Shown piece by piece: positions 6,799 to 10,624 of a DNA stretch of 25,511 nt (its first letter is position 1; each line of letters opens with the position of its first letter). The notes below the pieces were generated by a model that was not told the origin of the DNA, made no database searches, and worked only from the letters and a program-made list of their open reading frames with translations. The position numbers and the translations under genes were made by a program. The stretch lies in IMG/VR virus record IMGVR_UViG_3300043446_001777, positions 1 through 25,511 of that record; one strand, given 5' to 3'. The DNA comes from a virus.

Positions 6799-6989
6799 AA
6801 TGGAACCTCCTCTATCCACTCAGGACAAGAATTTAAAGAATTGGTAAATTCATCAGGCGGTTTCACATCAAACAGCGCACACCACCCAGCTTCGTTGTAG
6901 TTGTCGCAAGTGTGGCAACACCTCGGCACGGGTTCTTTCTTTCTTGCTCTGAACAGTACGACAACTTCAGGTTCTGGCGGTCTGCTCAT
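6795..6989 (-). CDS. Small Cys-rich, possible zinc-binding protein (64 aa)
   Basis: The protein carries CCHTCDNYNEAGWCALFD and a later Cys in SLNSCPEW, giving a C-x2-C...C...C spacing that suggests one bound metal ion. ATG 6989 overlaps the helicase stop as ATGA and lies 9 nt after a GGAG sequence; an alternative ATG at 6995 is too close to that site. A basic patch (FRARKKEPVPR) precedes the cysteines. Similar Cys-rich mini-proteins are common beside phage helicases and nucleases, and nucleic-acid binding is plausible. No family is assigned. Confidence 0.65.
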   Translation of the reverse strand: MSRPPEPEVVVLFRARKKEPVPRCCHTCDNYNEAGWCALFDVKPPDEFTNSLNSCPEWIEEVPF

Positions 6990-8566
6990 TTCCATTCTCT
7001 CCGTATCACTCGGTAAAATTTGCCATCCTTTTTGTACTCCACCAGTGACGGGGGATGTGAACCCTTCATTGATGCAACTGCTTCATCCAAGCTTTGCGCA
7101 CTTGTATGAACTCCTGCGCTTCTGGCGATAGTGATGAAGTTTTGCGCAGCTTTCTGGCCCGCATAGCCATCATGCATGACTGGCAGATACTCGGTCACAG
7201 GGACATCACTCAGCCCCCCGTAATAAGTCACAGCCAGCATCTCTTTCCCACTGGTGCGGCTTAGGTGTTTGCGCCACGTCCAGCTTGTGACCTCCATCTC
7301 AATCCCTTCAATGCCCATGATGTCGTCAAGATGGAGAGTCAACTCCTTTTTGACTGGTGGCGGGAAAGGGTGTCCGCATGCCGGGCAAGTTATCGCAGAG
7401 ATAGCGCACAGCTCGTCACAGTTATCGCAAACCTTAACAGGTGCCTCACCGTTACCGGATCCAGCCTTCTTAGGTGGCTGGACGTTGGTAATTGGCCCGT
7501 GCGTACTGACCACACCGGCAAAGTCCAGAACTAGACAATGATCGGTGTGGCTCTTTGGCCTGAGACCTCGGCCGGCCATCTGAACGTAAAGAGCTGGAGA
7601 CATCGTCGGCCGAAGCATGGCAATCAAGTCAATATCAGGGTAATCAAAGCCCGTCGTTAGCACATTGGCGTTGGTTAATGCCCTGATTTGCCCTGCTTTG
7701 TACTCCTTTAGACAACTTTCCCGTTCAGCCTTCGGCATCTCACCTGTAATGCACTTTGCAGTCACTCCGCAATCATTCAGCACATCGGCAACCGCATGAG
7801 CATGCTTCACGCCAGCACAAAAGAACAGCCACGCCTTACGATCACCTGCCAGCCTAATGACTTCTTGCACAGCAGCTAGGTTGTTCTCGTCCGTGTTCAC
7901 TGCGGCCTGCAACTCGGACTCTATGTACTCGCCACCTCTCTTGTGTACACCAGCGACATCTAGCTGAGACTTGGTTACTTTTGAACGTAATTGGGACAAA
8001 TGCTTCTTGTGAATCAGCTCCTCAATGCTAACCGGCTCAATCAGATCATCAAACAACGCGGGCTTGTCAGTGATCAAACCATGCCCCAGGCGGTAGGGTG
8101 TGGCCGTAAGCCCCACAATCCGCATGGCTGGGTTGATCATCTTTAATTCGGCCAGCAGAGTACGATAACCGCCCTCATCGTTGTGGTTCACTAGGTGGCA
8201 CTCATCAATCAGCACCAAGTCAATGTGCCCCAACAGCTTGGCTTTGTTGCGTAATGACTGAATGCCGGCAAAGGTAATCGGCTCGCCAAGTTGCTTTTTC
8301 CCTATGCTTGCACTATAAATACCCATTGGCGCCCCAGGCCAATGGAGGCGCATTTTCTCCGCGTTTTGCTCAATCAGCTCCTTTACATGGGTGAGCATTA
8401 GAACCCGGGTCTCAGGCCAATTTTGCAAGGCATCTTTGCACAGAGCCGCTACGATGTGGCTTTTACCTGATCCGGTGGGCAGCACTAGACAAGGATTGCC
8501 TTCGTTACCAGCGGCAAACCATGCGTAGAGTTGATTGATGGTTCGTTGTTGGTAGTCACGGAGCAT
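6986..8566 (-). CDS. SF2 DEAD/DEAH-type helicase (DECH box) with C-terminal zinc ribbon
   Basis: The protein has 526 residues from ATG 8566, which has AAGGAAA 6 nt upstream; a TTG two codons earlier lies too close to it. Motifs are: Q-motif-like LRDYQQRTI at 2-10, Walker A PTGSGKS (~30-36), Walker B as DECH (~121-124), motif III LTATPYR (~153-159), a second RecA lobe with TTGFDYPDIDL (~304-314), and motif VI QMAGRGLRP (~329-337). After the core comes a Cys cluster CDNCDELC...CPAC (~380-397) likely to bind zinc. This is the Rad3/SSL2-like helicase commonly found in phage replication modules, where it is thought to unwind or remodel DNA. It overlaps the upstream small gene by 11 nt and the downstream gene by ATGA. 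Confidence 0.9.
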   Translation of the reverse strand: MLRDYQQRTINQLYAWFAAGNEGNPCLVLPTGSGKSHIVAALCKDALQNWPETRVLMLTHVKELIEQNAEKMRLHWPGAPMGIYSASIGKKQLGEPITFAGIQSLRNKAKLLGHIDLVLIDECHLVNHNDEGGYRTLLAELKMINPAMRIVGLTATPYRLGHGLITDKPALFDDLIEPVSIEELIHKKHLSQLRSKVTKSQLDVAGVHKRGGEYIESELQAAVNTDENNLAAVQEVIRLAGDRKAWLFFCAGVKHAHAVADVLNDCGVTAKCITGEMPKAERESCLKEYKAGQIRALTNANVLTTGFDYPDIDLIAMLRPTMSPALYVQMAGRGLRPKSHTDHCLVLDFAGVVSTHGPITNVQPPKKAGSGNGEAPVKVCDNCDELCAISAITCPACGHPFPPPVKKELTLHLDDIMGIEGIEMEVTSWTWRKHLSRTSGKEMLAVTYYGGLSDVPVTEYLPVMHDGYAGQKAAQNFITIARSAGVHTSAQSLDEAVASMKGSHPPSLVEYKKDGKFYRVIRREWK

Positions 8567-8783
8567 TGTCAATTTCCTTGGAAATGCATCGTCTAATATC
8601 GTTCATTCCAATTGAATTGACATCCTCATCCCAAATATCAGCAAGTTCTGCAATCATATTTTCAACATAAGCAAGTGCGGCTAACCTTGCAAAATGTTTA
8701 AAAATAATCAAATTACTTCCCATGTAACAAATTGGGTTAAATCCTGCTTTATTTGCCAATTCAACAATTTGTTCGCTTTTCAT
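8556..8783 (-). CDS. Hypothetical protein (75 aa)
   Basis: ATG 8783 follows the methyltransferase TAA directly (TAAATG) and at the same time overlaps the stop of the alternative frame (ATGA, 8783-8780). The sequence MKSEQIVELANKAGF, then IIFKHFARLAALAYVENMIAEL, is predicted helical, with a mildly hydrophobic middle and an acidic C-terminus. Small phage proteins beginning in this way are common and uncharacterised. It overlaps the helicase start by 11 nt, so translation of the two is probably linked. Confidence 0.7.
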   Translation of the reverse strand: MKSEQIVELANKAGFNPICYMGSNLIIFKHFARLAALAYVENMIAELADIWDEDVNSIGMNDIRRCISKEIDNAP

Positions 8784-9601
8784 TTAGCCCCCAAGGAATC
8801 TGTATGCTGTTGCCGCTTGGAACGGGACTTGCGCGTTACCCAATCCTTTAAGACGGTGAACCCTATCGGAAACCCCATCATCCATTCGATCCACAACGGA
8901 TTCAACTTTCCACCAACTTGGCTCGCCAAAGTCGGTGTATTCCGTTTGGCTTCGCTCGGCGCGTTGGTTTCTTTGGCGTTGTGTGCCGTTGGAGTCGGCC
9001 ACATTTGACGACCGACAATCGTTTCCAGATTTGGAAATCGTTTGCTGTCCCATGCTGATGCTGGAGTTATCGTTGCCGCCATTGCTGCATTTGCCCTTGG
9101 CGTTGGCAAGTAAAAACCATCGGTCTCTCTGATGATTCGCTCCGACATCGGATGCGCGAATGCAACACCATCTTGCGTCATACCCCATCGAGGCCAAGTC
9201 TCCAAGTACGGTTCCCAACCCGTTACTAAGGATTGCTGATACGTTTTCCAAGAACAATTTTCTTGGTCGTACCACGCCAGCAATCCGCAAGACTTCTCGG
9301 TAAAGACCAGATCGGGTTCCCTCAGATACGCCTGCCTGCTTTCCAGCAATGCTAATGTCTTGGCAAGGGAATCCTGCATGTATGCAATCCACTTTTCCGG
9401 CGTACTCGGATGGATCAAACAATTGAACGTCCCCTTCCCACACTTGCAATCTTGGGAACCATCCGTCTGCTGCTCGTTCTCTGAGAACTTGGCAGGCATA
9501 TCCGTCTCGCTCAACAGCGATAACTGGCGTGTGCCCGAGGATGAGGTCTGCAAGCAGTCCTCCTCCGTGTCCAGCAAATAGGTGCATTGTTTTGATTTCA
9601 T
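8780..9601 (-). CDS. Second long ORF overprinted on the methyltransferase gene (273 aa)
   Basis: This frame, shifted against the methyltransferase, is open for 273 codons from ATG 9601, only 7 nt inside the methyltransferase start. It ends in a TGA that forms ATGA with the next gene. The translation carries motifs I recall from a widespread phage protein family seen beside C5 methyltransferases: STPEKWIAYMQDSLAKTL (66-83), CSWKTYQQSL (116-125), ETWPRWGM (134-141), LPTPRA and WPTPTAHN (165-170, 201-208), and LNPLWIEWMMGFPIG (233-247). The function is unknown. Motifs could be conserved only because the enzyme frame is conserved, so expression remains unproven. It would share the methyltransferase ribosome site or be re-initiated. 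Confidence 0.5.
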   Translation of the reverse strand: MKSKQCTYLLDTEEDCLQTSSSGTRQLSLLSETDMPAKFSENEQQTDGSQDCKCGKGTFNCLIHPSTPEKWIAYMQDSLAKTLALLESRQAYLREPDLVFTEKSCGLLAWYDQENCSWKTYQQSLVTGWEPYLETWPRWGMTQDGVAFAHPMSERIIRETDGFYLPTPRANAAMAATITPASAWDSKRFPNLETIVGRQMWPTPTAHNAKETNAPSEAKRNTPTLASQVGGKLNPLWIEWMMGFPIGFTVLKDWVTRKSRSKRQQHTDSLGAK

Positions 9602-9608
9602 GTTTCAT
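8784..9608 (-). CDS. dcm: DNA cytosine-C5 methyltransferase
   Basis: This enzyme transfers a methyl group from S-adenosylmethionine to cytosine C5 in DNA. From ATG 9608 (ATGA overlap with the nuclease stop; GAGG 8 nt upstream) it has 274 residues. Motif I is HLFAGHGG near 9-16. The catalytic loop is GFPCQDIS with Cys82. ENV follows at 121-123, QRDRWF at 160-165 and the C-terminal motif GLGNAQVP at 255-262. The variable segment of ~80 residues between QRDRWF and GLGNAQVP is the likely target-recognition region and is short and hydrophilic. No restriction endonuclease gene is adjacent, so protection against host restriction is the simplest role. Almost the whole gene is also open in another frame (see the entry at 8780-9601). 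The symbol is generic. Confidence 0.9.
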   Translation of the reverse strand: MKHEIKTMHLFAGHGGGLLADLILGHTPVIAVERDGYACQVLRERAADGWFPRLQVWEGDVQLFDPSEYAGKVDCIHAGFPCQDISIAGKQAGVSEGTRSGLYREVLRIAGVVRPRKLFLENVSAILSNGLGTVLGDLASMGYDARWCCIRASDVGANHQRDRWFLLANAKGKCSNGGNDNSSISMGQQTISKSGNDCRSSNVADSNGTQRQRNQRAERSQTEYTDFGEPSWWKVESVVDRMDDGVSDRVHRLKGLGNAQVPFQAATAYRFLGG

Positions 9609-10624
9609 TTCGCCACCCTCGACCCAGCCCATTCGCCTCTTAGCTTTTGAACAGCTTCATCAGCGCAAGCCTCAGCATTCGCCAACAGTTCTTTGCTTGA
9701 ATAGACGCCATCGCCTGGTTCGCCATTCGCCAAAGCTTTGCCGTTTATGATGTAGATGGCTTGCCATTCATTTGCGCTCTCTTTACGCTCCCAAGGCACC
9801 AGATCCGGGTGCAGCACGTGAGCCTCGCATCCGTGGTGCTGTGCATCAGTTGGAATAATGTCATCCCACCTAGCACAATGCCACGTGCTATCACTCAAAG
9901 CCGATGAATGCGCACAGGTGCGACAGTTCACTTCCTTGGTGGTCTTGCTGCCAAAACATTGATCATGGCCTGGGCAGTATTTGCACTCGTACCATGTTGG
10001 ATCAACGCTCAACGGCTCCGGCATGCGGTCAGACAAGGTGATCCGGCGGCCCCGATCCACAAACTTTTGAGCGGCTTCTTTGTCTAGGCGCACCCGCTCT
10101 GTGTAGAGCCGATCATCATCTTTGCAGACCGCCACATACAGAGCACGATCCAATCCAGTGCCCCACATGTAAACCTGCATCTGAGCCCAGTGCATCGGCT
10201 TGGCGGCTTGCACACCCTTTGAATTCAACTCATTAAAAGACTTTAACGAATGAGTCTTGAACTCAGCGATGTGAGGAGTCTTAACAGCACCTGGCACGCC
10301 TTTTTCAATACGGGCATCAATCGAGCCAGACACATGGCAATCAAAATCAACCCGGCTCTGGCCTTCAGAGGGAGTCCTAACATCAAGCCCAATTGCGCGA
10401 AGATCATTGATAATTTGCTGCTCTTCATTGTGACCCCTGCGAAATAGCCTCAACATGCGGCCAGAAAACTTTTCAACGACCGCCCACCTAAATGACAGCC
10501 ACAGCCAGCGGTCACACTTGTGACCCAGCATTGACGCGCCAAGGTGAGGGCGTGGTCTTTCTTGTTTTGCCTCGTGTACTTCGTCGATCAAAGTTGGTAT
10601 AGAATCAAGTTCTGGAATTTGCAA
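9605..10624 (-). CDS. Cas4/RecB-like PD-(D/E)xK exonuclease with Fe-S cluster cysteines
   Basis: The protein has 339 residues from a TTG start (10624) with a strong GGAGG site. The nuclease core shows Asp103 in SGSIDARIE and Glu121-x-Lys123 in IAEFKTHS, followed by the QMQVYMW helix with its Gln. Cys37 near the N-terminus and Cys214, Cys217 and Cys223 (YECKYCPGHDQC) after the core match the one-plus-three cysteine arrangement that holds a 4Fe-4S cluster in Cas4, AddB and phage RecB-like exonucleases. A second set, Cys234, Cys237, Cys250 and Cys266, follows and suggests an added zinc-finger-like module. It likely resects DNA ends for recombination with the Sak4-like and DUF669 proteins upstream. 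Its TGA overlaps the methyltransferase ATG. Confidence 0.85.
   Translation of the reverse strand: MQIPELDSIPTLIDEVHEAKQERPRPHLGASMLGHKCDRWLWLSFRWAVVEKFSGRMLRLFRRGHNEEQQIINDLRAIGLDVRTPSEGQSRVDFDCHVSGSIDARIEKGVPGAVKTPHIAEFKTHSLKSFNELNSKGVQAAKPMHWAQMQVYMWGTGLDRALYVAVCKDDDRLYTERVRLDKEAAQKFVDRGRRITLSDRMPEPLSVDPTWYECKYCPGHDQCFGSKTTKEVNCRTCAHSSALSDSTWHCARWDDIIPTDAQHHGCEAHVLHPDLVPWERKESANEWQAIYIINGKALANGEPGDGVYSSKELLANAEACADEAVQKLRGEWAGSRVAK

Follow-up and report, generated by a model that had tools for sequence, protein, structure and literature searches.

Can about 820 nt of phage DNA encode two proteins at once, and if so, what is the second one? The question is raised by a 25.5-kb viral record, analysed here over its whole length of 25,511 nt (the window), with genes for a P22-like portal, a terminase, a primase/helicase, a Cas4-domain exonuclease and a helicase. 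On its minus strand, the frame of a C5-cytosine methyltransferase (frame A, 8784..9608) is overlapped over ~820 nt by another open frame (frame B, 8780..9601). A first-pass annotation had reported both frames, and their positions and common strand were confirmed. It had offered two options, true overprinting or a protein family that is a translation shadow of methyltransferase genes; the former is upheld by selection on B, and the latter is contradicted by codon shuffles, four-fold sites and an internal control. To our knowledge, prokaryotes and dsDNA phages rarely have long same-strand overlaps in which both frames are conserved, and a role for the second product is known in few of them.

Two open frames and their junctions

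Frame A encodes 274 amino acids, from an ATG at 9608 to a TAA at 8786-8784, within an ORF that extends from 9632 to 8784. Its product, the probable large (catalytic) subunit of a C5-cytosine methyltransferase, matches phrog_363 (E 3e-58) and PF00145 (E 2e-31). Frame B is +1 relative to A, with its codon position 1 at codon position 2 of A, and runs from an ATG at 9601 to a TGA at 8782-8780. Its product of 273 amino acids, the probable small subunit, contains motif IX and a WPTPTA-type region and matches phrog_1008 (E 1e-19; 329 positions, labelled 'DNA methyltransferase'). The resemblance of both products to known families had been noticed beforehand. The phrog_1008 profile is matched by 53/53 B proteins tested; no family was matched by B in Pfam and NCBIfam.

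The two start codons lie 7 nt apart in the twin start ATGAAACATG (9599..9608, minus strand), A beginning at 9608 and B at 9601. Between them sits the TGA (9607-9605) of the upstream gene, a Cas4-domain exonuclease (9605..10624, minus strand; phrog_1990, E 1e-98); this stop overlaps the start of A, forming ATGA with its ATG, and the ATG of B is located 3 nt past it. At the other end, the TGA of B shares ATGA with the ATG (8783) of a downstream ORF of 75 amino acids (8556..8783, minus strand), and a helicase gene (6986..8572, minus strand; phrog_16, E 2e-100) also lies downstream. Both ATGA junctions were found as the first-pass annotation described them.

In 107 of 227 relatives, the first start codon of B lies exactly 4 nt after that of A (ATGAATGAG), A then reading MNEL(A/H)LFAG and B MSWLFSQALV; the 7-nt spacing of the window is present in 14 of the 227. 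Where A starts further upstream in frame, AATGAG is still visible at the same place. One ribosome-binding site could serve both starts. In a second group of loci B opens later, typically 140-150 nt in; B is probably shorter in these, which would make its first ~50 residues dispensable in part of the family.

Synonymous-codon shuffles of A contain on average 5.7 stops in the B frame, where none is observed, and 0/200 shuffles reach the open run of B. Over the aligned A region of 81 distinct loci, the B frame contains 286 stops versus 665 expected, many of the 286 falling outside the B ORF; there is no comparable deficit in the +2 frame across these loci. Among viral loci selected by the A profile alone, B is open over nearly all of A in 43/43 scorable ones, so the open frame is not a selection effect of the search. 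Frequent stops in relatives that keep the enzyme had been proposed as a sign against B, and it stays open in all these A-selected loci. In ordinary full-length C5 methyltransferases from bacterial genomes, the +1 frame is open over 60% in 0/60 cases, and none of the 60 passes the shuffle test.

Purifying selection on both frames

Every third-position four-fold site of A is a second codon position of B. Among close relatives, these sites are 76% identical in A, versus 45% in the upstream exonuclease (U) and 43% in the downstream helicase (D), which served as non-overlapping control genes in the same phage pairs and at matched amino-acid identity (0.74 versus 0.72). Identity is above that of the controls in 53/53 and 45/45 matched pairs, which are non-independent and constant in sign. 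Synonymous variation in the enzyme frame, suggested earlier as a check on B, is thus not normal. Between the window and the related locus L001, the third-position differences are 0.15 in A, 0.53 in U and 0.50 in D. Differences that are synonymous in A and nonsynonymous in B amount to 0.284 per site, versus 0.58 in both controls, and the dNN/dNS ratio is 0.46 for B, compared with 0.86 and 0.76 when the controls are read in +1, a frame without meaning there.

An internal control is provided by 51 loci in which B opens at least 30 codons into A. Inside B, four-fold identity is 0.63 at an A amino-acid identity of 0.59; outside B it is 0.36, near random, at an A amino-acid identity of 0.84. It is higher inside than outside in 123/126 pairs of that identity class. 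Constraint is maximal at ETWPRWGM, WPTPTA and LNPxWVEWLMG. Purifying selection is present in both frames, and its action on B, which makes this true overprinting, is strongly supported.

Division of the methyltransferase motifs between the frames

The enzyme frame had been credited with the full C5 motif set. This is not correct: A carries motifs I-VIII and X, and motif IX is in B. The SAM-binding and catalytic motifs I, IV (PCQ), VI (ENV) and VIII are present in A, with invariant PC, EN and G columns, and motifs I-VIII align to M.HhaI 13-182 (E 2e-38). The PF00145 match of A ends at profile position 210 of 324. In the AlphaFold model of A, pLDDT is >90 across most of the motif I-VIII domain and in the motif X helix; residues 182-262 (8847..9089, minus strand) are predicted to be unfolded (pLDDT <50), with no recognition domain. 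In C5 enzymes, the recognition domain and motif IX occupy the equivalent region, and both are absent from the A chain as judged by AlphaFold, the PF00145 profile match and a motif check. Read in frame B, the DNA of these residues encodes the WPTPTA region and motif IX. Identity in A is 0.09-0.15 over its columns 181-220, which are almost unconserved; in B it is 0.23-0.27 over B columns 181-220 and reaches 0.56-0.63 over motif IX (within columns 181-260).

The core of motif IX in B (LNPLWIEWMMGFP, 8867..8905, minus strand) was assigned by profile comparison, and four-fold identity in A, taken over the wide family, is 0.96-0.98 here, at LNPxWVEWLMG. The C-terminus of B, LNPxWVEWLMGFPxGWT, aligns with motif IX (RKLTPREaARLQGFPDxF) of 57 ordinary enzymes. 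In hhalign, this alignment scores 19.0 on motif IX, above a column-shuffled maximum of 12.6 (0/60), with an E-value of 0.005 and a probability of only 7%, which is low because the motif is short. With an HMM of motif IX alone, single B proteins are below significance, with 92/99 weak matches on the right motif; profile-profile comparison with shuffled controls was used in its place. With a chimera in which the VIII-X stretch of A was swapped for that of B (A-B-A), the PF00145 match still did not reach motifs IX-X. In 8/8 loci examined, motif IX of B lies a few codons 5' of motif X in the DNA. In the window, motif X (RLKGLGNAQVP, frame A, 8823..8855, minus strand) comes directly after it, and the helix that follows is mostly predicted with pLDDT >90. 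Since motif IX in B stands just before motif X in A, the order in the DNA is the canonical VIII-recognition-IX-X, its middle part being read in the other frame.

The AlphaFold model of B reaches a pLDDT of only 62, without a fold match in Foldseek, and PDB sequence searches with B gave no match. Its N-terminal half (SWKTxQ, ETWPRWGMM) has no methyltransferase counterpart, and no homologue was found outside the family. Residues 52-64 of B in the window (CKCGKGTFNCLIH, about 9408-9448) contain a CxC...CxxH pattern, possibly metal-binding, which is kept in close relatives and missing from most other clades.

A single-chain version is found in Gordonia phage Jabberwocky, where gp4 contains motifs I-VIII, a run of LPTP modules, motif IX and motif X in one ORF. 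The first part of this ORF is similar to gp80 (A frame; 50%, E 9e-70) and the last part to gp79 (B frame; 42%, E 9e-36) of Mycobacterium phage Arissanae. B of the window matches Samora gp35 (B frame, E 3e-7). In Arissanae and Samora, A stops a short way past motif VIII, and IX and X are both in B. Judged from their sequences, the loci fall into three layouts: one chain; two chains with partial overlap; and two chains with nearly complete overlap, as in the window.

Because B carries the motif IX that is missing from A, the two products are most likely subunits of one methyltransferase, B being the second; overprinting, as announced by the first-pass annotation, is borne out, and this relation between the products had been missed. 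We estimate at about 0.82 the probability that A and B are one C5-cytosine DNA methyltransferase, split into two polypeptides and encoded almost end to end in two frames. The large subunit A would provide the catalytic domain with motifs I-VIII and X, and the small subunit B would contribute motif IX and probably also the small domain for DNA recognition, which is absent from A. On one mRNA, ribosomes would begin either at the ATG of A or at that of B, 7 nt further on (4 nt in most relatives), and the separate chains would assemble into one active enzyme. Independent initiation of B, formation of the complex, its activity and target recognition by B are all inferred. By analogy with known phage methyltransferases, the phage probably uses the predicted enzyme to methylate its own DNA against host restriction.

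If B were a translation shadow that follows from the methyltransferase's conserved amino acids and codon usage, and its database family an annotation artefact, its conserved motifs would be expected opposite conserved parts of A, as they are; GenBank does sometimes annotate the B frame in place of A, and high G+C eases an open B in a few loci. Against this stand the 0/200 shuffles, the four-fold sites, the dNN/dNS of 0.46, the closed +1 frame in 60 ordinary enzymes, the conserved ATG 4-7 nt after the start of A and the homology of B to the C-terminal half of the single-chain enzyme. The 51 late-opening loci, with a four-fold identity of 0.63 inside and 0.36 outside B, refute the shadow, to which we give practically no credence. 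A real protein unrelated to methylation, for example in anti-defence, could also have arisen by chance on the methyltransferase gene, and the N-terminal half of B, lacking an outside homologue and a fold match, would be compatible with such an origin. This is unlikely, however, given the match and position of motif IX, the absence from A of this motif and of a folded recognition domain, the existence of a single-ORF homologue and the fact that B was never clearly found apart from A in the loci searched.

The order VIII-IX-X in the DNA, with IX in the other frame, would also be obtained if a single chain were made by programmed frameshifting, from A to B near motif VIII and back before motif X, the rest of B being a by-product; a natural indel in three loci (L016-L018), which joins the N-terminal part of A to the C-terminal part of B, points in this direction. 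Two shifts would be needed, however, and sequence conservation extends to the upstream half of B and to its ATG. In Samora and Arissanae no return shift is needed, because B carries IX and X, and we consider frameshifting very improbable. A methyltransferase split into two subunits remains the preferred reading.

Known split enzymes, origin and breadth of the overlap

The smaller gene of M.EcoHK31I is nested within the larger one in a different frame, and in vitro both polypeptides are needed. This enzyme and M.AquI are examples of two-polypeptide C5 methyltransferases that are already known (PMC3404938). In M.EcoHK31I (YGGCCR), the larger subunit has motifs I-VIII and X and the smaller has motif IX alone, as in A and B, the likeness being one of published motif layout (PMC3404938). 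The recognition domain of M.EcoHK31I is predicted in the large subunit (PMC3404938), whereas none is folded there in A of the window; the locus is thus a variant, rather than a plain member, of the M.EcoHK31I kind. It also differs in its near end-to-end overlap, its starts 4-7 nt apart and its wide phage family, M.EcoHK31I belonging to a restriction-modification system. M.AquI (CYCGRG) is split between motifs VIII and IX (PMC3404938), a layout shared by Arissanae gp80/gp79 and Samora gp34/gp35; in the window, unlike in M.AquI, the overlap is almost complete and motif X is retained in A. M.HhaI and other single-chain C5 enzymes have the recognition domain and motif IX in frame in their one chain. 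With the ShiLan element, too, a phage methylase gene encodes a second protein out of frame, an HNH endonuclease (PMC11855218). ShiLan is an inserted homing element; nothing is inserted in the window, where it is the enzyme's own coding sequence that is overlapped.

When C5 enzymes are divided between motif VIII and the recognition domain, the fragments complement each other well (PMC3404938, PMC5944983). A frameshift at this place may have yielded two chains able to complement each other, of which the second began within the first, in the +1 frame; A would later have read on through the recognition region and regained motif X, and each frame would have been written over the other, in different parts. 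We lean slightly towards such mutual overprinting, in which B would lie over the catalytic domain of A (5' two thirds) and A over the recognition domain and motif IX of B (3' third), about 820 nt would encode nearly both whole subunits, and the N-terminal half of B would be a new domain, arisen de novo on the methyltransferase gene and kept across several host phyla.

No paper on this methyltransferase overlap was found in the literature search, and what is new, within the literature searched, is that the overlap is almost full-length, how widely it occurs and what phrog_1008 is. The overlap spans the whole enzyme gene, occurs in phages of many hosts and has a testable reason, namely that the second frame carries a part that the first lacks. 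The split enzyme would assign a function to the large unexplained family phrog_1008, would correct phage annotation that shows one frame and loses the other, and would give a reason for possible inactivity of phage C5 methyltransferases when just one frame, recoded or codon-optimised, is expressed.

The overlap layout is shared by hundreds of other phages and prophages and is retained down to about 25-35% B identity. B is present in loci from many bacterial phyla, including phages of Pseudomonas, Acinetobacter, Salmonella, Vibrio, Klebsiella, cyanobacteria, Mycobacterium, Streptomyces, Porphyromonas, Bacteroides, Paenibacillus, Rhizobium and Xanthomonas. In 17/299 genomes of one bacterial phylum phrog_1008 is matched, and all but one weak match overlap A. 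No clear case of a stand-alone B was found among 80 genome loci, the viral loci or these 17 phrog_1008-positive genomes, and almost no close B homologues were found on plasmids. Locus L382, a candidate for B without A (E 4e-4), contains four stops and was rejected.

GenBank usually annotates A and sometimes B alone, as in Stenotrophomonas SOVA965 (where it is called methyltransferase), Vibrio 1.236.O, Pseudomonas phPA-G and Microcystis Mwe-JY08. The phrog_1008 label 'DNA methyltransferase' is without a stated basis, B not being a catalytic domain, and the annotation of B as methyltransferase in such records probably accounts for it. In Escherichia phage K1ind1 (L398), both frames are annotated (1070-1894 and 1158-1850) and each is called a DNA methyltransferase; the record does not appear to comment on the overlap.

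Streptococcus and Faecalimonas phage enzymes that have their own motif IX keep a B-like N-terminal +1 ORF open, so motif IX is not the sole reason for the overlap. These ORFs carry the N-terminal motifs of B (L397, 1334-1829; L401, 1403-1826; L402, 1193-1718; 0/200 shuffles) and end in CSLSDILEE..KYFLS, a segment that A lacks there; compared by eye, SLSDILEE..KYFLS resembles the stretch after motif VIII in ordinary enzymes. The three loci may represent a further split layout.

A single indel swaps the frames mid-gene in L016, L017 and L018 (around 3550 in L016) and in L026 (around 3335), joining the front of A to the back of B or the reverse. The indel of L016-L018 looks like a real allele, since it comes from three different metagenomes. 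In L053 (2237-2987), ~130 HNH endonuclease-like codons lie in frame within the methyltransferase, directly 5' of the catalytic GGFPCQD, and in L093 (3373-4033), ~600 nt, perhaps an intron or homing element, interrupt both frames at one place. A LAGLIDADG endonuclease gene lies beneath the methylase match in Gordonia phage Keitabear (H79; MN329677.1 3375-4286). The Acinetobacter locus L105 (2850-3800) is about 80% identical, over 60% of its length, to E. coli prophage DNA in the chromosomes of PT62, LP5-1, PCP07014 and 23CRST032, an identity that is unusually high for intergenus blastn and expected of doubly coding DNA; the PCP07014 copy is an annotated pseudogene with an internal stop.
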